Source of the DNA: Klebsiella pneumoniae
GTDB taxonomy: Bacteria > Myxococcota_A > UBA796 > SXON01
Length of the DNA: 39,256 bases
Assembly: GCA_945867435.1 (NCBI GenBank)
Contig: CAMBIK010000008.1
Coordinates: 1-39,256, forward strand
Direction: 5' to 3'
Both the position numbers and the translations under genes were made by a program. The notes under the pieces are model-generated. The model had not been told where the DNA came from, ran no database searches, and saw nothing but the letters and a program-made list of their open reading frames with translations. Positions 2,946 through 17,434 of the stretch are shown in pieces (position 1 is the first letter of the stretch; each line of letters begins with the position of its first letter).

Positions 2946-4298
2946 CTACCAGTACCCGCCCTGCTGGATCTGTTTGCGCAGCTCGTTGGACACCTGGGCT
3001 GGAGCGTCTGTCGGCTCCCAAGTGTCGTCGCCAAGCTCTTGAAGTTGCGCGTGAAGCGCTTCGGCTGCGGGGGTGACCACGTTGGCCCTGGCGACCACGC
3101 CGTCCTTCTCCAGCTCGATGTCCCAGTGGGTGTCGTCGAACTGGACGAGCCGCAGCCCGCCAGACACAATCGCCTCCCGACGCACTACCGCCCCGTCGGG
3201 TGAGCGGCTAATCGACTGACTGAACGCCGGCCTCGCCGCCATCGCCTCGCCGTTGAGCAGGGGGACGAGGCTCTGACCGTCGAACGACGTACGCGAGCTG
3301 ACGTTGGCAAGCTCCAGAAGCGTCGGGACGATGTCGACTTGGGACACGTCGTCTCCCACGACGCGCCCCATGCCGCCTGGCACACCAATGATTAGGGGAA
3401 TGTGCAAAACACGGCGCTCCATGCGGTCCTTGTGGCCGGGAAGTGACTCGCCGTGGTCCGCCACCACCACGACCACGGTGTTGGCGAGGCGACCGACCGC
3501 CGCGAGCGCGTCCAGCACTTGCCCGAAGTGCGCGTCCGCTGCGTGGACGGCCGAATCATAGGCAAGCGAGAGCTGCTCGGCGACGAGCGGATCTTGCCTC
3601 ATGCGCTCCATCAACCACCGGTTTGGATCGGTCGTCTCCGACCAGATCGGCGCGATATCGCTGCCCATGCGGGGTAGCCCGGCCTGCCACTTCACGATGT
3701 CGGGGTGGAGGCTCCCAACGGGCACGAACGGCGCGCCTGCCCCGAAGGGAGAATGCGCCGCGCGAAGATGAACAAATCCGAAAAATGGCGTCGGTTCGGC
3801 GGCGGCCCACGCCGCGAACGGCTCCGGGGCCTACTGGCTCATCAGCTTCGGTCGGCTGACCTCGGAGAAGTCCCTCGTGATCCCCGACGCATCCGGAAGC
3901 GACATCTGCGTCGACTCTTGGAGCGTAGCGGCCGCTCGCCAGCCCGCGTCGCGCAACAAACCGGAGAGGGTTGGCGCGCCAAGCACGAGCGTGTCCAGAT
4001 CGTCTGCCACGCGATGATGCCCGAGGAAAAGCCCAGTGAGAATGCTGGCGTGCGTGGGGTTCGTCCAAGTGGCGTTCGCCCACGCGCGGGTGAACCTTGT
4101 GGCGCCGGAGGCGAACGCGTCGAGGCGTGGGGTTGTCGCCCGCGCCGTGTACCCGAGCGCGCCGACGCGATCGGCCCGCAGCGAGCAGAAGGTGACCAGG
4201 AGGATGTCGGGCCGTGGCCCTGTGGGCCGGCGGCTTGCGCATGCGAGGAGCGGCACCACGGCGGCGAGTAGTTCGCGGCGGGACAGAGCCGGGTTCAT
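2946..4298 (-). pseudogene. Sulfatase/alkaline-phosphatase-superfamily lipoprotein, interrupted by an in-frame TAG
   Basis: Both halves lie in the same reading frame and together would give about 450 residues, a normal sulfatase length. The N-terminal half has a lipoprotein-type signal (SRRELLAAVVPLLAC), an LRADRVGALGY block, and WTNPTHASILTG at the nucleophile site, with Thr79 where Cys or Ser is usual. A TAG at 3833-3831 (codon 156) follows LMSQ. Beyond it, family sequence continues: FFGFVHLRAAHSPFG, then VVVADHGESLPGHKDR with metal-binding Asp-His. The usual metal-ligand Asp before LRAD is Cys38. The ATG at 4298 is chosen for its GGAGG six bases upstream. A CAG-to-TAG change or a sequencing error is the simplest reading. 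TAG is a common normal stop in this window, so recoding is unlikely. Confidence 0.75.
3831..3833 (-). other. In-frame TAG splitting the sulfatase-family gene
   Basis: The codons around it read Met-Ser-Gln-TAG-Ala-Pro-Glu-Pro-Phe. Without it, 35 further codons lead in frame to the GTG at 3725 and on into the conserved C-terminal half. A single base change from CAG or TGG would create it. Confidence 0.8.
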
Positions 4299-4314: not shown

Positions 4315-4320
4315 AACATA
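4315..4320 (-). promoter_or_regulatory. -10-like TATGTT upstream of the sulfatase-family gene
   Basis: TATGTT lies 16 bases before the ATG at 4298, and GGAGG sits between them. This is a conventional leadered arrangement, unlike the leaderless-type starts elsewhere. A 10-base palindrome, TACCGCGGTA, lies just upstream at 4325-4334. Confidence 0.4.
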
Positions 4321-4450: not shown

Positions 4451-5767
<1,317 letters not shown>

Positions 5768-5790: not shown

Positions 5791-6693
5791 GTGTACCTCG
5801 ACCGACTCGATGGCGTGGGGCTGCGGCGCCTCGAAGCGGCGTTGCACGCTGGGGACCCCGTGCAGCTCGTGGGGCGCCCGCCGAGCCGGGTGCCGATGGA
5901 TGAGATCCTGCCGCTGTGCCACGGCGCAGACGACATCTCGTTGTCGGCGCTGTTGCCACCTGCCGGCCGCGGGGGGACCGACATCGCGGTGACCGCCGTG
6001 ATTCCCACCCACCGGCACCGCCCGATCGGGATCGATGCCCTTTCCGCGCAGGATGTGGAAGTGGAGGTGATCGTGCTCGCGAATGGCACCTTCGAAGGCG
6101 GGGTTCGGGTGGCCTGGGAGGGGCATGGCCGCACGCGGCAGCGGGGGGTGGAGCTGGCACGGCACCCCTATGTGCTGTTCACGGTCGATGACGCGAGGGT
6201 GCTGGGGGCGGGCATGGTTCGCACGATGGTGGAGGCGCTGGAGGGGGGGGGCTACGACGCCGTGGTGGCCCGCCAGATCCCGTGGCCGACGGCCGACGCT
6301 GTGACTCGCACGCGCCTCCGGGGATGGACGCCACCCGGAACGGGGCATCGGGGGACCGACGTTCTCGACAACGTGTGCTCGCTGTACCGTCGCGCCGCTC
6401 TGCTATCCGACCCGTTCGACGACGTGGCCATCGCCGAGGATTGGCACTGGGGCCGGCGCCACCGCATTGGGTATGTGCCCGCCGCCCCGGTGCTCCACAG
6501 TCACCCTCGCCGCCTCGGTCCTCTATTTTCGCGTACTCGCGCCATCCACCGCGAGCGCATCCGCGCGGGCCTCCCGCCGAGCGTCCCTGACCTTCCCAGC
6601 CTCCTCCGGGCCCTGCCCTCGACCTTGGGCCCCGACCTGCGCGGCGCCCTCGGCGAGCTTTTTGGTCAGTACGCCGCCACGCGAACAGGCTAG
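5791..6693 (+). CDS. Glycosyltransferase family 2-like protein
   Basis: The 300 residues have an N-terminal extension of about 65 residues followed by a GT-A-type core. ITAVIPTH-like sequence (VTAVIPTHRHRP) opens the nucleotide-binding fold, VEVIVLANG forms the next strand, and GRTRQRGVELARHPYVLF leads to TVDDARVLG, where the paired Asp are the likely metal/sugar-nucleotide site. AEDWHWGRR and a late HSHPRR resemble rhamnosyltransferase-like members. It probably transfers a sugar from a nucleotide donor to a polysaccharide or glycolipid, but donor and acceptor are unknown. Translation starts at GTG 5791. It ends 8 bases before the following lipoprotein ATG. Confidence 0.8.
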   Translation: MYLDRLDGVGLRRLEAALHAGDPVQLVGRPPSRVPMDEILPLCHGADDISLSALLPPAGRGGTDIAVTAVIPTHRHRPIGIDALSAQDVEVEVIVLANGTFEGGVRVAWEGHGRTRQRGVELARHPYVLFTVDDARVLGAGMVRTMVEALEGGGYDAVVARQIPWPTADAVTRTRLRGWTPPGTGHRGTDVLDNVCSLYRRAALLSDPFDDVAIAEDWHWGRRHRIGYVPAAPVLHSHPRRLGPLFSRTRAIHRERIRAGLPPSVPDLPSLLRALPSTLGPDLRGALGELFGQYAATRTG

Positions 6694-6696
6694 TGT
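6691..6696 (+). promoter_or_regulatory. -10-like TAGTGT before the hydrolase-like lipoprotein gene
   Basis: TAGTGT lies 5 bases before the ATG at 6702, but its TAG is also the stop codon of the glycosyltransferase, so the match may be incidental. Confidence 0.3.
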
Positions 6697-6701
6697 GGTT
6701 C

Positions 6702-7511
6702 ATGCTCTTGCTTGTCGTGCTCGGTTGCTCCTCGCCCGTTGAGTCCGACCCGCTGGGCTACGACGCCGGCCGGTCGGGTCTCGAAGGCGCCGATGGCCCC
6801 TGGGGCGTACACCTGACAGTGACTGCAGATGCCGATCCGCCCCACGACCTTTTCGCCCCTACCGACGCCGAGGGTGCCCCTGCCGAGGTTGGCTTCGCTG
6901 CGGCCACGCTGGTGATCCTGCAAGGCGAAGGCGAGCTCCCCGAAGGCTACCATTGGCTGGCTCAGCACCTGGCGTCCAGAGGCGCCACGGTGATCGTGCC
7001 TCATCACGGGCTCGAATCCGCATGGGTGGACCCAAGGGCCGGGCAGCGGGCACTCGCGGCAGCTTTGACTGCAGGTCAGGTGACCGAAGACGCCCCGGTG
7101 GGCTTCCTCGGCCACGGGCTTGGCGGGGCGGCGGCGGCGGCCCTGTGGGCGGGGGAAGAGTCCATCGAAGGTCTCGCTCTGCTGTCTGCCTCCGCTGGCG
7201 CCGACACGGATGTCGAGTCGCGGGAGTCCGGGTCGGTGCTCATCATGGTCGGTGGGGAGGAAGATAAAGACACCGTGAGCGCCGTGAAGGCGGGCGGCGA
7301 CCGCTTCAATGTGACCCACGCCGTGGTCGTCGTGCCGGACATGCTGTCGGCCGACTGGAGTGCCGAGGGCGCGGACCATGCCAAGTGGGGAATCGACGGA
7401 TGGGTGGACAGCTGCGTGACCTCTTCGGTCGGCACCTGGCCGTTCTACGCTGCGGCTCACCCGGAGGATGTGGTCGGGAGCCCGTGCGAGTTGATGGTGA
7501 TGGGCGGGTGA
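6702..7511 (+). CDS. Alpha/beta-hydrolase-like lipoprotein lacking the nucleophile serine
   Basis: The 269 residues start MLLLVVLGCSS, a short lipoprotein signal with acylated Cys9. The body resembles chlorophyllase/dienelactone-type alpha/beta hydrolases: a strand LVILQGEGELP, a segment WLAQHLASRGATVIVPHH and then the elbow region VGFLGHGLGGAAAAAL. In active members the elbow is Gly-His-Ser-x-Gly-Gly. Here residue 139 is Gly (codon GGG), so no serine nucleophile is present. A later strand SVLIMVGGEED is where an acid residue would be expected. It may be a non-catalytic binding protein. ATG 6702 is preferred over GTG 6693, which overlaps the previous stop codon and only adds MWF. Its end overlaps the next gene by GTGA. 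Confidence 0.65.
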   Translation: MLLLVVLGCSSPVESDPLGYDAGRSGLEGADGPWGVHLTVTADADPPHDLFAPTDAEGAPAEVGFAAATLVILQGEGELPEGYHWLAQHLASRGATVIVPHHGLESAWVDPRAGQRALAAALTAGQVTEDAPVGFLGHGLGGAAAAALWAGEESIEGLALLSASAGADTDVESRESGSVLIMVGGEEDKDTVSAVKAGGDRFNVTHAVVVVPDMLSADWSAEGADHAKWGIDGWVDSCVTSSVGTWPFYAAAHPEDVVGSPCELMVMGG

Positions 7512-8752
7512 CAACCGGTCAACGACAGATCCTGTTCCTTCCCTTTTTGGCAGGTTGTGAGCCGGTCGTTCCCCCCGCTCTCGAGATCGGGGCCGAGGAT
7601 CCGGTCTGGGATCCGGCGTCGCTGCCGATTTTTAGACTGACCTTGCCGGCCGACTGGGAAGCTCAGCTCACCGCGATCATTCCCACGGACAGCTGCGCCG
7701 AACGGGGCACGATCCTCGGTTCTCTCGACTACGAGAACCCGCAGTCGGGCGAAACGGAAGCCTACAGCGACGTCGCCTTCAGGTACCGCGGCCACACGGC
7801 TCTGGACGATCCTGAGAAGCGATTCGGGTTGAAGCTGCTCTTCGACACCGTGGACCCCGACCAGCGCTTCCACGAGATGCAGAACGTGAACTTGCTGGGT
7901 TCGGAAGGGGATGATTCCCTGCTGCGGGAACGCACCGCCCAGCTCTTGATGGACCGTCTCGGCGTGCCGGCGCCGCGCCTCAACCACGGCCGGGTCTATG
8001 TCAACGATGCCTTCCAAGGCCTGTTCCCCATCGCCGAGGAACCCGACGACCAGGCCTTTCTCGACGCCCATTTCGACGACCCGAGCGGCCACTTGTACAA
8101 GGTGGAAGGCTACTGTGGGGGTCAGGCCGACTTCCTCTACGAAAGCGAGGATACTGGCGACTACGATACGATGTACGAGGCGAAAGCCGGAACCTTGCCT
8201 GAGGATGTCCTCGCTGACCTGCTCCCGATGATCCGCTGCGCCAGTGGCTTGTCGGGAGATCTCGCGACGTGCCTCCCCGATTCGGTCGATGTGGATGCGT
8301 GGCTCGCGGAGATGGCGGTGGATGCGGCCATGCCGGATGTGGACGGGCTCGCCGGTGCCGGTCAGAACTTCATGATCTACGCCGATCCCGCATCCCTGCG
8401 CTTGGTGGTGTACCCCTGGGACAAGGACCAGGCTTTCCGCACCACGGACCTGGCATCCAGCTCCATATTTGACTTCCATCCTCCCTGGGCCACCCCGCCC
8501 CCGGTCACCCTGTCGATGCGTCAACTCTGGAGTGCCGAGTACTGCGACCTCGTGGATCGCGCGGCCGACGAGGCGCTGGACCTCGATGAAACCGTGGGCG
8601 CTCTCGCCGCGTTTTTGGAGCCGTATGCGGCAGAGGATGCCTACCTGATCGAGCATGACTGGGCCGCCCAAGTGGCCGATCTGCGGGCCACCCTGGCCGA
8701 CCGAGCGGCGGAAGCGAAGGCAGAAGCCGACGTTTGCAACGCTTCTGGCTGA
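7508..8752 (+). CDS. CotH-like protein, lipoprotein
   Basis: The start is the GTG in a GTGA overlap with the preceding stop codon, giving translational coupling. It places a lipoprotein signal, QILFLPFLAGC, right at the N terminus (414 residues). CotH-family features follow: RYRGHTALDDPEKRFGLKL, NVNLLGSEGDDSLLRERTA, the central AYVNDA-like RVYVNDAFQGLFPIAEEPDD, and VVYPWDKDQAFR with the WDxD-type metal site. CotH proteins include atypical protein kinases of spore coats, and the family is widespread as secreted proteins in Myxococcota. The substrate here could be an exported partner, and the coupled hydrolase-like lipoprotein is a candidate. Kinase activity is inferred from family only. Confidence 0.8.
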   Translation: MTTGQRQILFLPFLAGCEPVVPPALEIGAEDPVWDPASLPIFRLTLPADWEAQLTAIIPTDSCAERGTILGSLDYENPQSGETEAYSDVAFRYRGHTALDDPEKRFGLKLLFDTVDPDQRFHEMQNVNLLGSEGDDSLLRERTAQLLMDRLGVPAPRLNHGRVYVNDAFQGLFPIAEEPDDQAFLDAHFDDPSGHLYKVEGYCGGQADFLYESEDTGDYDTMYEAKAGTLPEDVLADLLPMIRCASGLSGDLATCLPDSVDVDAWLAEMAVDAAMPDVDGLAGAGQNFMIYADPASLRLVVYPWDKDQAFRTTDLASSSIFDFHPPWATPPPVTLSMRQLWSAEYCDLVDRAADEALDLDETVGALAAFLEPYAAEDAYLIEHDWAAQVADLRATLADRAAEAKAEADVCNASG

Positions 8753-8827
8753 CGACTGTACTCGGCCGCAGCGCGACCCAGCTTACCAGCATCCGGGTGA
8801 GCGGTGGCGGGGTCCCCACGCAACGCG

Positions 8828-8833
8828 TAGGGG
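8828..8833 (+). promoter_or_regulatory. -10-like TAGGGG before the ATP-grasp gene
   Basis: TAGGGG ends 6 bases before the ATG at 8840, within the 87-base gap after the CotH-like gene. No Shine-Dalgarno sequence fits better. Confidence 0.4.
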
Positions 8834-8839
8834 GCCGCG

Positions 8840-9775
8840 ATGGTCCATATCCTCTACGAAAACCCCGCCTGGTTGCCCCCCCTGCTCGCCGCGCTCGACG
8901 CACAGGGATTGTCCTGGCAAGCAAGAGATGCGAGCAAAGGCGAGTTTCACGTCGAGGGTGAAATCCCCCCCGGCGTGTGGCTCAACCGGATGAGCCCTTC
9001 CGCCCACACCCGCGGCCACGCCGGGGGCATCCACTTTGTGCGCGAGTGGCTAGGCGTGCTGGAAGAGCGGGGGGCGCCCGTGGTGAACGGCAGCAGGTCG
9101 TTCGCTCTCGAAGTCAGCAAGGTCCGTCAGCATGCGGCCCTGCATGCGATGGGGATCCTCACCCCGCGGACGATTGCGGTGGTCGGCCGCGACGGACTGC
9201 GTGCTGCGGCCCGGCAGATGGGCGCGCCGTTCATCACCAAGCACAACCAGGGTGGCAAGGGGCTTGGGGTCCAGTTGTTCCGGGACCACGCCGCGTTCGA
9301 CACCTTCGTGGCGGGCGATTCGTGGGAAGAACCGATGGACGGCGTGATGCTGCTCCAGGAATACATCGAACCGCCCTCCGGAAGCATCACGCGCGTGGAG
9401 ATCGCGGGGGGGCGCTTCCTGTTCGCGATGCGGTCGGCCACCACCGGGGGATTTGAGCTTTGTCCCTCGGATGCTTGCCAGGTCGGCGATGCCTTCTGCC
9501 CCGTGGGCGAATCGCCTTCAGCGAAGTTCGCGGTCGATCCGATGACCGCCGACGATCCCACCGTGCGCGCCTACATCGCTTTCTGCGAAAAGCACGAGAT
9601 CGACGTGGCAGGCATCGAGTTCGTGACCGGAGCGGACGGCCGCCGCTACACGTACGACATCAACATGAACACCAACTACAACAGCGCGGTCGAGCGGTCC
9701 GCGGGTGTGGATGGGATGCAGGCTATCGCGGAGCTTTGCGGTCGCAAACTTGGTGCGGCGAGGGCGGCGGCGTAG
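8840..9775 (+). CDS. RimK-like ATP-grasp ligase
   Basis: The 311 residues follow the RimK/ATP-grasp plan. The pre-ATP-grasp part contains WLNRMSPSAHTRGH and VNGSRSFALEVSKVRQHAAL. The ATP-binding part has PFITKHNQGGKGLGVQLF (phosphate loop) and MLLQEYIEPPSGSITRVEI. The metal-binding end is GIEFVTGADGRRYTYDINMN with TNYNS. Enzymes of this group form a peptide or amide bond between a carboxylate and an amine with ATP, as in adding glutamate to proteins or small molecules. The substrate is not evident from the neighbours. It ends 5 bases before the convergent radical SAM gene. Confidence 0.85.
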   Translation: MVHILYENPAWLPPLLAALDAQGLSWQARDASKGEFHVEGEIPPGVWLNRMSPSAHTRGHAGGIHFVREWLGVLEERGAPVVNGSRSFALEVSKVRQHAALHAMGILTPRTIAVVGRDGLRAAARQMGAPFITKHNQGGKGLGVQLFRDHAAFDTFVAGDSWEEPMDGVMLLQEYIEPPSGSITRVEIAGGRFLFAMRSATTGGFELCPSDACQVGDAFCPVGESPSAKFAVDPMTADDPTVRAYIAFCEKHEIDVAGIEFVTGADGRRYTYDINMNTNYNSAVERSAGVDGMQAIAELCGRKLGAARAAA

Positions 9776-9780
9776 GGCCC

Positions 9781-10617
9781 CTAAACCACCTTCACCGAAA
9801 GCCCGACCGCTGCCGCATGCGCCCCAATCCAGGCGAGCCGGTCAGGGGGGAGGGCGCCGACCTGTGACGACGCCGGCGGCCGGGCCACGGTGTATACCTG
9901 CACCTCGGCCACGGTGCCCGATTGAGCGACTTCGCGAAGTCGTTCCACCCAGGCCGCGATCTCGGCATCCGCCGGGCCTTCTCCGTCCATGGTGAGGAAC
10001 ATGGACTGGATCACGATCGGACGCAACGCCGCCAGCTCGCGCAGGTTGCGCAGGACCCGGGCAAACGGGAACTTCGTGCCATCGACGAGCTGAAAGTACG
10101 GCTCCGTGCCTGCGTCCAGCTTGCACCAGATCTCGTCGATGTGGGGGAGGCCTGCTCGCACAGATGCGCGATGGAGCAGGGTGGAGTTGGTGAGCAGCCT
10201 CACCGGCACGCCGGGCGCCAGTCGATCGCGAAGCGAGGCAACCAGGGCGGCTGAACCCGGGAATTCGGGTGGGGTGGTGGGTTCCCCATCGCCGGCGAAG
10301 GCGATGTCGACGACGTGGCGATGCTCGGCTGCGGTGGTGTCGAAGGGGGAGTCGGCCCAGAGATCGCCGCTGCGCACCCGGAGGAGAAGCTGTTCCAGCT
10401 CCTCGTGGAGTCGGTTTTGGTCGATGCGCGCCGACCCTCCCGGCACGCGCCGGTCCACCTGGCAATAGGGGCAGTCGAAGTTGCACACCTTGTCGGGGTT
10501 CAAGTTCACGCCGATGCTCAGGCCGCCGGCTCGCCGCGAAACGACGGCGTAGACGTAGCGGTTTTCCCCGAGATCGCGTCGGTGATCGGTGAAGTCGAGG
10601 CGGCGGGGCGAAGGCAC
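9781..10617 (-). CDS. Radical SAM protein
   Basis: The 278 residues contain the cluster motif CNFDCPYC (Cys45, Cys49, Cys52) that binds the 4Fe-4S cluster used to cleave S-adenosylmethionine. FAGDGEPTTPPEFP matches the glycine-rich/GEPT SAM-binding motif, and VRLLTNSTLLHR and IWCKLDAGTEPYF continue the partial TIM barrel. A C-terminal auxiliary cluster is not obvious, as no further Cys cluster follows. The protein resembles the broad COG0731 Fe-S oxidoreductase group, whose reactions are varied, so no reaction is assigned. The start is GTG 10617, 38 bases from the divergent GMC operon. Confidence 0.85.
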   Translation of the reverse strand: MPSPRRLDFTDHRRDLGENRYVYAVVSRRAGGLSIGVNLNPDKVCNFDCPYCQVDRRVPGGSARIDQNRLHEELEQLLLRVRSGDLWADSPFDTTAAEHRHVVDIAFAGDGEPTTPPEFPGSAALVASLRDRLAPGVPVRLLTNSTLLHRASVRAGLPHIDEIWCKLDAGTEPYFQLVDGTKFPFARVLRNLRELAALRPIVIQSMFLTMDGEGPADAEIAAWVERLREVAQSGTVAEVQVYTVARPPASSQVGALPPDRLAWIGAHAAAVGLSVKVV

Positions 10618-12734: not shown

Positions 12735-15413
12735 GTGGTGAACGATGAACAAGCGGGGCTGAACCGGGGGGGCGACCTTGCAGGCGCACCGACGGTTTTG
12801 GGTGGCCGGTGGACTCCGATTCAGTTCGTGGCGGCGGTGGGTCTGGTTTTTCTGTTCGCGTTCACGCTCATCCTCTCCTTGGCGCCCGTGGCCGGTGGAG
12901 AGAGGGTGGTTGGGCTGGACGGTCCTTGGCAGTTGGTGGAGGTCGATGGCGCCCCCACCACCGGGATCTTCACCCTGCCCGGGCTGTTGGCCGACCAGGG
13001 AATGTCCCCCTCGGCCCGGGTCAGCCTACGCAGGGTCATCGAGATCCCCGCGGCCCGCGGGTGGAGCGCGGTGTGGGTCGAAAGCCCTCTTTACGCCACG
13101 CGACTCTCCCTCGATGGGGAGGAGATCGGGGCATCCGGCGACCCCGATGGGGTGGGCGCCGCCTCGCGCAGCGAGACGGGAGTGCTGGCGCGCCTGCCGC
13201 ACAGCCCCGGCCCGCACACCCTGCAGTTGGACTTGAAGGGAGGCTACGGCAAGGGCGGCATGACCGGGCGCATCCTCATGGGGCCGGAAGAGACGTTGAG
13301 AGGGGTGGCCAAGGAGCACAACTCGGCGCCGCTTGGTCTTTCGGTGATTGTGGCATTGCTCGGTATCTTGTGGTTCCGGGTCGCATTGGGGTCCCCCGCC
13401 CGCCTGGCGTGTTTCTGGTTCGGGTGTTTCGCCTGCGTGCTCTCGGCCTGGAGCTTCCTGCAGACCGAAAGCGCCAACGAATTGCTGCCTTCAGTGTCCA
13501 TGGCGATCCGGCTGCGTCGGCTGCTCAACCCCTTCCTGGGGCCGCTCGGCATCACCATGTTCTCCAGCCTGGTCTACGGTGCGCCGCCTCGCTGGACCCG
13601 CGCCTACATCGGCCTTGGCGTTTGCCTCGCGGTCCCCGCCTTGTTCGTCCCTGACGACTCGCTCTTCCTTCTCGAACGGGTGCAGGATGGCTCCCTCGTT
13701 TTGTTGGTCGTCGCCGCTTTCTGGATCATGGGCGATGGCATCCGCAAGCAGATTCCGGGGGTGCTGGCGTTTGCTCTGGTCACTTTCCCGCCGCTGCTCG
13801 TCGGGGCCTCCGTTCATGTGGCCATGACCCACGGAACGCACGGCGGGAACTCGTTCATGTACACGGCGTTGACCCTGTTCATCGTGGCGGTTTCGGCCTT
13901 CATGGGTCGGCGCTTCATCGTCGAGGCGGATTGGCATGCGCGATTGCTCGCGCTCAGCAGCGATGCGATCGTGTACGTCGAGCAGGGCGGGCGGGTGTTT
14001 GGCATGAACCCGGCGGCCCACACCATCCTCGGGGAAATCCCCGAGCAGTCGATGTTTGTATGGGCGGATCGATGCCGGGTCCCCCTGATGCACGCGCACA
14101 TCGAGCGCGGCGCGGCCGCGGTCGACCGCGCTGAGTTCTGCTTGGGAACGGGCCAGGAGCAGCGTTTTGTCGAGTCCGTCGCCACGCCGCTGGGCACCGG
14201 CTCAGCGCTGCTGGTCCTGCGCGATGTGACCCGACGCCGCCAACTCGACGAAGGCATGCAGCACGCTTCGAAGATGGAGACCATCGGCCGACTGGTGGGC
14301 GGGCTCGCTCACGACTTCAACAACATGCTCAGCGTGCTCCTGGCTCATGTGTCGTTGCTGCAGCTCCGCTTGACGGACGCGCCGGAAGCCGACCGCCTCA
14401 TCCGGATGGAGGCGGCCATCGTGAGGGCCAGCCAGCTCTCCCGCCGCCTCCTCACGGTGGCTGGAAAGGTGAGCCTCACCCTCGAGCCTGTGCAACTCGA
14501 AAAGATCAGCCGTTCCGCCTGCGAACTGGTCGAACCGACGCTTCGGAAGACGGTGACGCTTCACCGCGACGGGCCTGAAACGCTCCCCCCGATTCTCGGC
14601 TCCGAAGCCGACTTGGAACAGGTGCTCGTGAACCTGCTGGTGAACGCCCACGATGCCGTGGGGCCGAGCGGCCAAATCTGGGTGCGGACGCGTTCCTACG
14701 CGTTGCCCAACGGCGCTACGGGCGCGATGGTCATCGTGGAGGACGACGGTCCTGGGGTGCCCCTCGCGCAACGTGAGTCGATCTTCGAACCTTTCGTGAC
14801 GACCAAAGGGGCGAACAAGGGTACGGGTCTCGGCCTGGCCATGGCCGCGAAAGTCCTGCGCGACCACAATGGTCGTCTCTGGTTCGAAGAACGTCCGGGC
14901 GGCGGGGCCCGCTTCTGCGTGGCCCTTCGGTCCGCGCCGCGCCACCTGGCGGGTGAGCCCGCTCTCCCGGTGTGTCGGGATGTGCTTCTCGTGGAAGACG
15001 AGGAAGCTACCCGGGAGGCCTGCGCTGCAGAGCTGATCGCCAGCGGTTTTGTGGTCACCGCGGTTTCCACGGCGGAGGCGGCGCTGGAGGTCCTCGCGAC
15101 CGCGTGTCCGGCGGTGCTCGTGACCGACGTGGTGATGCCGGGCATGTCCGGGATCGACCTCGCGGTGTTGGCGACCGTTAAGTACCCTTCGCTCGCCGTT
15201 CTTTTGGTGAGCGGGTTCATTCCCGAGCGCTTGGTTCCCCAACTTGAGCGCGGGTCGTGGTGGCGCCTCGACAAGCCGGTTCGTCCGGAACGCATCGTCG
15301 CCACGGTCAGGGCGATCTGTCTTCGCCAGGAGTCCGCCAGCGACGCCTCCGCCTCGGAAAGCCCCTTGCTCGCGCCGCTGAACGCGCTCCGCGCCGAGTA
15401 TGTCCTGGGTTAG
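12735..15413 (+). CDS. Membrane hybrid histidine kinase with receiver domain
   Basis: The 892 residues run in this order: a membrane helix (about 31-50), an outer beta-rich domain (60-195) that starts like sugar-binding/GH2-type sandwiches, about seven membrane helices (200-392), a PAS-like domain (403-498), the phosphoacceptor helix GGLAHDFNNML (His526), an HATPase with VNLLVNAHDA (N box, Asn637), VEDDGPGVP and GTGLGLAMA, and a receiver (748-865) with acidic VEDEE, phosphoacceptor Asp798 in LVTDVVMPGMSG and Lys847. The layout recalls 7TMR-DISM sensors. It lies 27 bases after the GMC gene, so it may be co-transcribed. GTG 12738 is an alternative start with GGAG closer to the usual distance. 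The output partner is not in the window. Confidence 0.92.
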   Translation: MVNDEQAGLNRGGDLAGAPTVLGGRWTPIQFVAAVGLVFLFAFTLILSLAPVAGGERVVGLDGPWQLVEVDGAPTTGIFTLPGLLADQGMSPSARVSLRRVIEIPAARGWSAVWVESPLYATRLSLDGEEIGASGDPDGVGAASRSETGVLARLPHSPGPHTLQLDLKGGYGKGGMTGRILMGPEETLRGVAKEHNSAPLGLSVIVALLGILWFRVALGSPARLACFWFGCFACVLSAWSFLQTESANELLPSVSMAIRLRRLLNPFLGPLGITMFSSLVYGAPPRWTRAYIGLGVCLAVPALFVPDDSLFLLERVQDGSLVLLVVAAFWIMGDGIRKQIPGVLAFALVTFPPLLVGASVHVAMTHGTHGGNSFMYTALTLFIVAVSAFMGRRFIVEADWHARLLALSSDAIVYVEQGGRVFGMNPAAHTILGEIPEQSMFVWADRCRVPLMHAHIERGAAAVDRAEFCLGTGQEQRFVESVATPLGTGSALLVLRDVTRRRQLDEGMQHASKMETIGRLVGGLAHDFNNMLSVLLAHVSLLQLRLTDAPEADRLIRMEAAIVRASQLSRRLLTVAGKVSLTLEPVQLEKISRSACELVEPTLRKTVTLHRDGPETLPPILGSEADLEQVLVNLLVNAHDAVGPSGQIWVRTRSYALPNGATGAMVIVEDDGPGVPLAQRESIFEPFVTTKGANKGTGLGLAMAAKVLRDHNGRLWFEERPGGGARFCVALRSAPRHLAGEPALPVCRDVLLVEDEEATREACAAELIASGFVVTAVSTAEAALEVLATACPAVLVTDVVMPGMSGIDLAVLATVKYPSLAVLLVSGFIPERLVPQLERGSWWRLDKPVRPERIVATVRAICLRQESASDASASESPLLAPLNALRAEYVLG

Positions 15414-17047
15414 CGCGAGTGGACCAACCAGACGTTCGCCACGATGCCGGCGCCGAACCCGCTCCCTGAGTCGTAGGCCTCGGGCACATAGGTGTCTCCC
15501 TCGTAGAGTCCTCGGTAGGCCAGGGTGTTCTCGGCGCCGGCTGCCACCGCGGCCGTGATGTCGGCACTCCACGGGTCCACCTGCTTGCCCGGACACCAGC
15601 CTCCCCGCCCGAGGACCCAGGTGCCGTACTGGTTCGGTACGGTGCCCACGTTGACCTGGTCGCCGCACCCGTAGTTGCTGCCCGCCATCGCGAAGTCGTG
15701 GACCCAGGTCTCGGTACCGTTCACGGTGAATTCGTGTTCGTGGTTGCAAAACTCGGCGCAGTTCGCGCGGTCTTTTCCGTATCCGTGGCCGGTCACCAGT
15801 GCCCAGACTTCGGTCCGCACTGTGCCTTCCGGCGGCGTGAACGTGATCGGCTCGCGCCCGGTGTTGTAGTCGGAGTTGAACGAGCCTCCGGCCCAGAGGT
15901 AGTCGATCTGTACGGGGCGAAACCCCTTTCCCTGGTTGGAGAGCCGCAAATCCAGGGTGATCAGCGGAGCGTTTGCGCTGTCCACGCGAAGGGTGCGCGG
16001 GCCGCCGTCTTGCAACATCGCGAGGAACGGGGTGACATCCACCACCCAGCGGCCGGGCCGGGCGTAGGCGGTGATGAAGCGGCCGATCTCGGTGCAGATT
16101 CCCGATTCGTCCACGTCGGTGGTCGAGGCGTCGTCGGCATCGCAGAGGTACACGTAGGCGAGGTAGTCCCATTCGCCGCAGCCGACGCTGTCGGGGTGGC
16201 CGTTGCAGATAAAGGTCAGGTCCAACTCCATCGTGTCGTAGGTCGCCATCGTTTCCGCCGCGCCGAAGTCCACGCTTACGGCCCGTTCGCCCGTGTTCAC
16301 GAACGGGTGGAGAACGTCGGCGCCATCGACATCCAGCCGGTCCTGCATGGCGGCTTGCCCGTTGAAATAGAGAGCCTCGTAGTTCAGGAAGGCAGGGGGC
16401 GAGGTGTTCCAGCCGGTGACCGGGTCGGCGAGGTAGCCGAGCTCGCGGATGCGCTGAAAGCGGTCGACGGCGAAGTTCAGCGGGAGGTCGCCGCTGCCAT
16501 AGGTTTCCACGAGCGTGTCAATCCAGGTGCCGGTCTGGTCCCAATCCGTGGCCACATAGTGGGCGTGGGCCTTCCACATCGCGAGCGTTGCCTCGTCGGC
16601 ATCGGCGATGTTCTCGATGTCCTCCTGCAGCGCGGCCAGCGCGTCGGTTCGCTTCGACTCGGTGCGTTCGTCGGAGAAGAACACCCAGTGGGTGTTCGCG
16701 GGTGCCCCTTCCATCCATTCGCGGACCAGGATCTTGGAATCGAAGTCGGGGTAGGCATTGCCCGGGCGCAGGCGCACGAAGATCACGCTTTCGCAGCCGG
16801 TCCATGCTTCGGAGAGTGTCCAGGCGGAGCCATCCGTCTGGGTAAGGGTGGCGTCGGGGGCCACCAGGTCGAAGTCCACGTCGACACCGGAACCATCCCA
16901 GGTGCGGACGGGGAGCGCGAGCTGGTCGCAGATCGTGGGGGGGGCCTCGATCACGGCGGTGTCGGCCGTGTCTGTGGCGGAGTCGACCGCGGTGTCGTTG
17001 GCTTCGGGGGTGGATTCCGGGCAGGCGAGCAGCAGCAAGGTGAGCAT
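15410..17047 (-). CDS. PNGase F-like lipoprotein with an extra N-terminal domain
   Basis: The 545 residues start MLTLLLLACPES (lipidated Cys9), then an Asp/Thr/Ala-rich linker to residue 33. Residues 50-200 have DGSAWTLSEAWTGCESVIFV, possibly redoxin-like (inference). From about 245 onward the protein matches peptide-N-glycosidase F: VGCGEWDYLAYVYLC (Asp294, equivalent to catalytic Asp60), EIGRFITAYARPGRW, GHGYGKDRANCAEFC (Glu432, equivalent to Glu206) and GTWVLGRGGWCPG. The region equivalent to Glu118 reads LRVDSANAP, with Ala358 at that position. The family removes N-glycans from asparagine. Start 17047 is chosen because it gives the lipoprotein signal and follows TACTCT by 6 bases. The stop interlocks with that of the kinase. 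Confidence 0.85.
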   Translation of the reverse strand: MLTLLLLACPESTPEANDTAVDSATDTADTAVIEAPPTICDQLALPVRTWDGSGVDVDFDLVAPDATLTQTDGSAWTLSEAWTGCESVIFVRLRPGNAYPDFDSKILVREWMEGAPANTHWVFFSDERTESKRTDALAALQEDIENIADADEATLAMWKAHAHYVATDWDQTGTWIDTLVETYGSGDLPLNFAVDRFQRIRELGYLADPVTGWNTSPPAFLNYEALYFNGQAAMQDRLDVDGADVLHPFVNTGERAVSVDFGAAETMATYDTMELDLTFICNGHPDSVGCGEWDYLAYVYLCDADDASTTDVDESGICTEIGRFITAYARPGRWVVDVTPFLAMLQDGGPRTLRVDSANAPLITLDLRLSNQGKGFRPVQIDYLWAGGSFNSDYNTGREPITFTPPEGTVRTEVWALVTGHGYGKDRANCAEFCNHEHEFTVNGTETWVHDFAMAGSNYGCGDQVNVGTVPNQYGTWVLGRGGWCPGKQVDPWSADITAAVAAGAENTLAYRGLYEGDTYVPEAYDSGSGFGAGIVANVWLVHSR

Positions 17048-17053
17048 CCGGCC

Positions 17054-17059
17054 AGAGTA
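17054..17059 (-). promoter_or_regulatory. -10-like TACTCT before the PNGase F-like gene
   Basis: TACTCT is followed by 6 bases (GGCCGG) and the ATG at 17047. It shares a 30-base divergent gap with the ArsC/Spx-like gene's own TAGGAG at 17066-17071. Confidence 0.5.
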
Positions 17060-17065
17060 GCCCGT

Positions 17066-17071
17066 TAGGAG
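17066..17071 (+). promoter_or_regulatory. -10-like TAGGAG before the ArsC/Spx-like gene
   Basis: TAGGAG is 6 bases before the ATG at 17078. The AGGAG within it also reads as a Shine-Dalgarno sequence, so the site is ambiguous. Confidence 0.35.
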
Positions 17072-17077
17072 TACCGG

Positions 17078-17434
17078 ATGACCCTTACCGTCTATGGCAT
17101 CCCTTCGTGCGGCACCGTGAAGAAGGCGCGGGCCTGGCTCACGGGGGCGCGCCGCCCCCACACCTTCGTCGACCTGCGCGACACGCCGCCGTCTGCGGCG
17201 CAGATCGCCGCTTGGGTGGCCCGGTTCGGCTCGAAGGCGATGCGGAACACGTCGGGCGGAAGCTACCGGGCCCTGGGCGAAGCCAAGGACCGCTGGACAG
17301 ACGCCGAGTGGATCGCCGCCTTCACCCAGGATCCCATGCTGCTGAAGCGACCGATCGTGGAGCGGGATGGCCAGCCCGTGATCGTGGGTTGGGCGCTGGA
17401 CGATGCCGAGATCGCCATTCGGCTGGGGGGATGA
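17078..17434 (+). CDS. ArsC/Spx-family protein (YffB/MgsR-like)
   Basis: The 118 residues have the ArsC-family fold signature: a first strand TLTVYGIPSCGTVKKARAWL with Cys11 and the Cys-x5-Lys-type spacing, then HTFVDLRDTPP, and LLKRPIVERDGQPVIVGW near the end. Members reduce arsenate with glutathione or glutaredoxin, or act as Spx-type redox regulators. Only one Cys is present, which fits the YffB subgroup of unknown reaction. No arsenic-resistance genes are adjacent, so arsenate reduction is not claimed. It ends 4 bases before the convergent cytochrome gene. Confidence 0.85.
   Translation: MTLTVYGIPSCGTVKKARAWLTGARRPHTFVDLRDTPPSAAQIAAWVARFGSKAMRNTSGGSYRALGEAKDRWTDAEWIAAFTQDPMLLKRPIVERDGQPVIVGWALDDAEIAIRLGG

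Follow-up and report, generated by a model that had tools for sequence, protein, structure and literature searches.

A probably recent inactivation of a sulfatase-family gene from a branch with cysteine at the position of a metal-binding aspartate

The window, that is, the whole stretch of 39,256 nucleotides that was analysed, is contig C8 in full; the draft MAG to which it belongs comes from an uncultured bacterium and comprises 3.79 Mb in 301 contigs (76% complete). It carries, on the minus strand (2946..4298, start ATG at 4298), a gene of the PF00884 sulfatase family broken by a single stop codon, and an alternative in-frame ATG at 4319 (minus strand) would add seven residues to its product. 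The flanking genes encode an RhlE-type helicase (2677-1160, minus strand) and PurA (4487-5767, plus strand). With the TAG read as X, the protein scored 97.5 bits against the PF00884 profile (cut-off 25), over profile positions 1-301 of 301, and its membership of PF00884 Sulfatase (alkaline phosphatase superfamily) passes the curated cut-off. The initial annotation had pointed to an in-frame TAG at codon 156, a Cys at residue 38 and a Thr at residue 79; all three were confirmed, and the gene was placed on the minus strand. Counted from the ATG at 4298, the TAG occupies 3831..3833 (minus strand). Upstream of it, Cys38 (4185..4187, minus strand) lies in the sequence VTFCSLRAD, where a metal-binding Asp normally precedes the LRAD motif; the nucleophile position is taken by Thr79 (4062..4064, minus strand), in the sequence ATWTNPTHAS. 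Downstream of it are the retained metal ligands Asp281-His282 (3453..3458, minus strand) and the conserved His289 (3432..3434, minus strand). The terminal stop is also a TAG (2946..2948, minus strand) and immediately follows the conserved GYW end.

Close to the N-terminus, the segment SRRELLAAVVPLLAC (4239..4283, minus strand) is a putative export signal, which resembles a twin-arginine signal and includes a candidate lipobox Cys. One of the relatives described below (G003) has the sequence SRRHFL, which may be compared with this segment. Elsewhere in the window, positions 6693-10617 contain genes for alpha/beta hydrolase-like (below the cut-off), CotH-kinase, RimK-like ATP-grasp and radical SAM proteins, a group that could be a peptide-modification cluster, and a 583-aa ORF (15410-17161, minus strand) carries a peptide-N-glycosidase F C-terminal domain.

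Relatives of the gene were sought in 141 related genomes, and then in 22 genomes of the family. Three close relatives were found, all in the same genus (G006, G005 and G003). The G006 copy (73% identity over codons 65-450; one MAG) has a frameshift, with one additional base between codons 64 and 65. The G005 copy (86% identity over codons 1-110; one MAG) retains codons 1-110 and 425-450 and has lost about 946 bp between them; the two remnants are in different frames, and the 8-base overlap of their matches is consistent with a deletion having occurred between short repeats. The G003 copy is intact and shows 49% identity to the window protein.

A single frame spans the TAG in the window copy, which aligned without gaps to the G006 copy over codons 65-450 at 73% identity. 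The window protein also matches 24 of the 25 columns that are invariant in 21 other Cys-type relatives, including those of Asp281, His282 and His289, all located past the TAG. As aligned, the continuity of the frame beyond the stop codon is far in excess of chance. The dN/dS ratios (NG86) between the window and G006 copies were 0.15 ahead of the TAG (codons 65-155) and 0.22 from there to the end (codons 156-450), and those between the window and G005 copies were 0.27 (codons 1-110) and 0.18 (codons 425-450). Over the 132 codons common to the window, G006 and G005 copies, the changes specific to the window comprised eight synonymous and four non-synonymous codons, and those specific to G005 seven and three, respectively. 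By these counts, the window copy has no sign of long neutral drift and, since it also retains 24 of the 25 invariant columns, the TAG appears to be recent. As the TAG precedes the Asp-His ligands, it is a disabling lesion of the kind expected of a pseudogene, and a recent knock-out is its most probable meaning. The earlier views that the TAG looks recent and that the gene is decaying are both supported: the two halves are conserved in one frame, and the two nearest relatives, G006 and G005, carry other lesions.

Of the 23 PF00884 matches listed for its genome, this gene alone contains an internal stop, and the same holds for the 107 matches (E<=1e-20) in the 22 genomes of the family, the other 106 having none. 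Separately, among the matches listed for the 141 genomes, a second sulfatase-family match with an internal TAG was observed (G122:C136:64311-65330), in a genome from another class of the phylum.

Other explanations of the TAG have to be weighed against a recent knock-out. It might have arisen as an error in sequencing or assembly, or it might come from a minority strain and have entered the MAG consensus, with most cells carrying an intact gene. We regard this as unlikely: a draft genome in 301 contigs and 76% complete leaves room for such errors, and the remainder of the gene is undamaged and constrained, but the other PF00884 matches listed for the genome (23 in all) are free of internal stops, and the two nearest relatives are also broken, by lesions of different types. 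It is very improbable that UAG is read through, by a suppressor tRNA or in a leaky context, to give a full-length enzyme. The terminal stop, where the relatives end, is itself a TAG, and the relatives carry sense codons at the site of the internal one. Furthermore, among the 38 tRNA places found with RF00005, all of which were read by ARAGORN, none has the anticodon CUA, although, with the genome 76% complete, this is not proof of absence. These observations outweigh the open and conserved frame past the TAG, which would be expected under read-through. Given the terminal TAG, the missing CUA tRNA and the lack of any other family match in the genome with an internal stop, read-through or a change in the genetic code was rejected as the main reading, and the read-through proposed in the initial annotation found no support.

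We give still less credence to a split gene, in which two separately translated polypeptides would act together. Such a split would separate Cys38 and Thr79 from Asp281, His282 and His289, the earliest ATG, GTG or TTG past the TAG is 35 codons downstream, and none of the relatives listed is divided at this place; both ORFs are nevertheless open, the first for 162 aa (ATG at 4319) and the second for 259 aa (GTG at 3725).

Each of the three nearest copies (window, G006 and G005) is broken in its own way, and this points to a gene that is dispensable in the genus, an argument made post hoc and drawn from three genomes, with one MAG each. No neighbouring genes were shared among the window, G006, G005 and G003 copies in the stretches compared. 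PurA is closer to that of the window in G003 (83% identity) than in G006 (78%), whereas the sulfatase-like gene is instead closer in G006 than in G003. These two rankings disagree, and movement or differential loss is likely. A mobile element was considered as the carrier or the breaker of the gene and was rejected, as no transposase or integrase Pfam match came from the subset of ORFs scanned, both in the window and in the surroundings of the G006, G005 and G003 copies, and as the copies have no neighbour in common.

The initial annotation also read decay, or a changed role of the protein, into Cys38 and Thr79, and the wider comparison does not support this. For this comparison, matches shorter than 250 aa, stop-containing matches and near-duplicates were excluded before counting, leaving an alignment of 73 rows. 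The Cys38 column contained 36 Cys, 32 Asp, four Glu and one gap, and position 79 was Thr in 71 rows and Ser in two. Asp281-His282 were present in all 73 rows, and the position of His289 was His in 69 of them. In a separate alignment (A1), His289 was invariant, as was Cys38 in the 22 Cys-type rows, which had been selected for Cys and are therefore uninformative on its frequency. A quick IQ-TREE tree inferred without columns 37-39 separated the 36 Cys rows and the G006 fragment from all other rows by a branch with an SH-aLRT of 96.8, and the window grouped with G006, G003 and other Cys rows even though the Cys column had been omitted. The Asp/Cys state requires a single change on this tree, in which many deeper forks are poorly supported. 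What appeared to be damage to the metal site is thus a conserved Asp-to-Cys swap. The Cys-type branch splits into clade A (14 rows, including the window) and clade B (23 rows).

A degenerate DNA pattern for the Cys motif matched 26 of the 63 genomes of the order, at 40 places, and a reversed-pattern control matched none of the 63; the pattern requires TCN for Ser and NTN at two residues, and some variants are therefore missed. In the phylum, 28 of the 377 sampled genomes were matched. The two of these from outside the order (G075 and G199) were discarded, as their matches are not in sulfatase frames, leaving the motif confirmed in none of the 314 sampled phylum genomes outside the order. We rejected Cys38 as a product of decay, since it is common to a whole branch whose members include relatives with undamaged frames. 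Thr79 is shared by most of the relatives and, judged from these alignments, both residues are ancestral and not damage. Cys38-bearing homologues in an active enzyme had been named beforehand as evidence against the reading of decay or a changed role; conserved homologues that share Cys38 were indeed found, and their activity is a prediction from sequence. Literature searches for a Cys ligand or for this family gave no description of a Cys-type branch in the titles and abstract openings of open-licence papers.

The Cys38 column aligns to the Asp of VVDQWRAD in 2vqr, a phosphonate monoester hydrolase-type protein, and Asp12, the corresponding position of phosphonate monoester hydrolase, is given as a metal ligand (PMC4014121). 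In our reading, the same column corresponds to Asp13 of AtsA and Glu255 of LtaS (PMC4973235, PMC7576196). A survey of 4058 formylglycine sulfatases reports Asp13 in 96% of the sequences, with Glu, His, Gly, Asn and Arg, and not Cys, as rare replacements (PMC5066984). The formylglycine (S1) sulfatases and phosphonate monoester hydrolases belong to the PF00884 fold family, as does the window protein, and Asp281-His282 resemble Asp324-His325 of the phosphonate hydrolase (PMC4014121). However, the Asp13/Asp12 ligand of these enzymes is a Cys in the window protein, so that the acidic ligand (Asp or Glu) of the Ca-binding 1 pattern (PMC5066984) is missing. The C/S-x-P-x-R motif is also absent, residues 79-83 being TNPTH: the window protein has no C-x-P-x-R because it has no Cys/Ser nucleophile. 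Choline-sulfatase and arylsulfatase profiles scored below their cut-offs against it.

Parallels are also provided by LtaS, EptA/MCR-1 and YejM/PbgA, which share with the window protein a Thr at the nucleophile position, Asp-His ligands and an extracytoplasmic location (PMC4973235, PMC7576196). The conserved Thr and Asp/His ligands of such proteins are all present in it (Thr79, Asp281 and His282). The acidic ligand is Glu255 in LtaS, a Glu in EptA/MCR-1 and Asp268 in YejM, in contrast to the Cys of the window protein which, as read, also differs from LtaS, EptA and YejM in having no multi-helix membrane domain. The NCBIfam profiles for YejM (33.5 bits, cut-off 825) and phosphoethanolamine transferase (19.2 bits, cut-off 500) were both far under their cut-offs against the window protein, as was the LtaS profile (33.7 bits, cut-off 970) against a second Cys-type protein from the same genome (L070). 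AlphaFold2, run on the window protein (with the TAG as a residue) and one relative, gave a mean pLDDT of 35.5 and lends the predicted metal site no structural support. In the sulfatase survey, Thr is at the nucleophile position in 30 of 59 Pfam seed sequences, and Thr-type proteins are not to be assumed to be working sulfatases without experiment (PMC5066984); YejM, with Thr302, is reported as a Mg-dependent phosphatase (PMC7576196). On the basis of the Thr-type Pfam seeds, the caution over their role as sulfatases and the ligand columns, we read the intact members as Thr-nucleophile metal enzymes, which are probably extracytoplasmic hydrolases or transferases acting on phosphate esters.

Clade B proteins, such as L070, conserve Cys38, Thr79, Asp281, His282, His289 and His182 and, unlike the window protein, have no internal stop. 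In all nine clade B rows of A1 (L038, L039, L041, L044, L061, L062, L064, L070 and L073), a CxxC was observed shortly upstream of the ligand-position Cys, together with two further Cys near the C-terminus. The CxxC just before this Cys and a downstream SGNH-like protein distinguish clade B from the window protein. At all 11 loci considered (L152-L162; e.g. L162:6502-8151, 8148-10175), the gene immediately downstream of the clade B gene shares its strand and encodes a membrane protein of about 600-700 aa, the C-terminal part of which matches GDSL/SGNH weakly (no higher than the Pfam cut-off in the four tested). Such a partner was found in none of the 12 clade A stretches examined, including the window. 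This arrangement suggests work on envelope glycan or lipid by clade B, and bears little on the window gene.

Taken together, these comparisons make it probable that the window gene is a recently inactivated member of a branch with Cys in place of a metal-binding Asp, and that it encoded a hydrolase of the alkaline phosphatase superfamily that was exported and probably anchored to lipid. The window copy would yield no enzyme, because translation stops at residue 155, ahead of the Asp-His ligands. In intact relatives, Thr79 would serve as the nucleophile, with metal bound through Cys38, Thr79, Asp281 and His282, and the enzyme would work outside the cytoplasm on a phosphate (or sulfate) ester, which it would cleave or transfer. 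The gene would be dispensable in the genus of the window, where it is apparently being lost repeatedly. More tentatively, the Cys-type branch may be an undescribed metal-site variant of the Thr-nucleophile superfamily, seen in one order so far, in which a thiolate ligand would change the metal (Zn or Fe over Mg, Mn or Ca) or confer redox sensitivity; clade B might act with the membrane SGNH-like protein on envelope glycan or lipid, and the clade A member might be undergoing repeated loss in the genus of the window through differing lesions.

The stop codon alone is ordinary gene loss, and the differing lesions in the nearest relatives caution against inferring a change in function from a single broken copy. 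Cys-type proteins would be labelled 'sulfatase' in databases, despite their missing sulfatase nucleophile. If Cys38 binds metal, the branch would be a natural test of ligand type against the choice of metal and the preference for phosphate versus sulfate.

Two further observations were made around the relatives. In G003, a 645-aa open frame (L053:4774-6711, plus strand) joins a GyrB-type ATPase and gyrase B domain to a methyltransferase domain, and is either an unusual fusion or two genes merged by assembly. Two clade A Cys-type genes have, at a distance of about 2-3 kb, a gene pair (L166:5068-7824 and L167:735-3714) encoding a protein of about 430 aa with no Pfam match and an SGNH-like protein of 485 aa; related pairs are present near some clade B loci.
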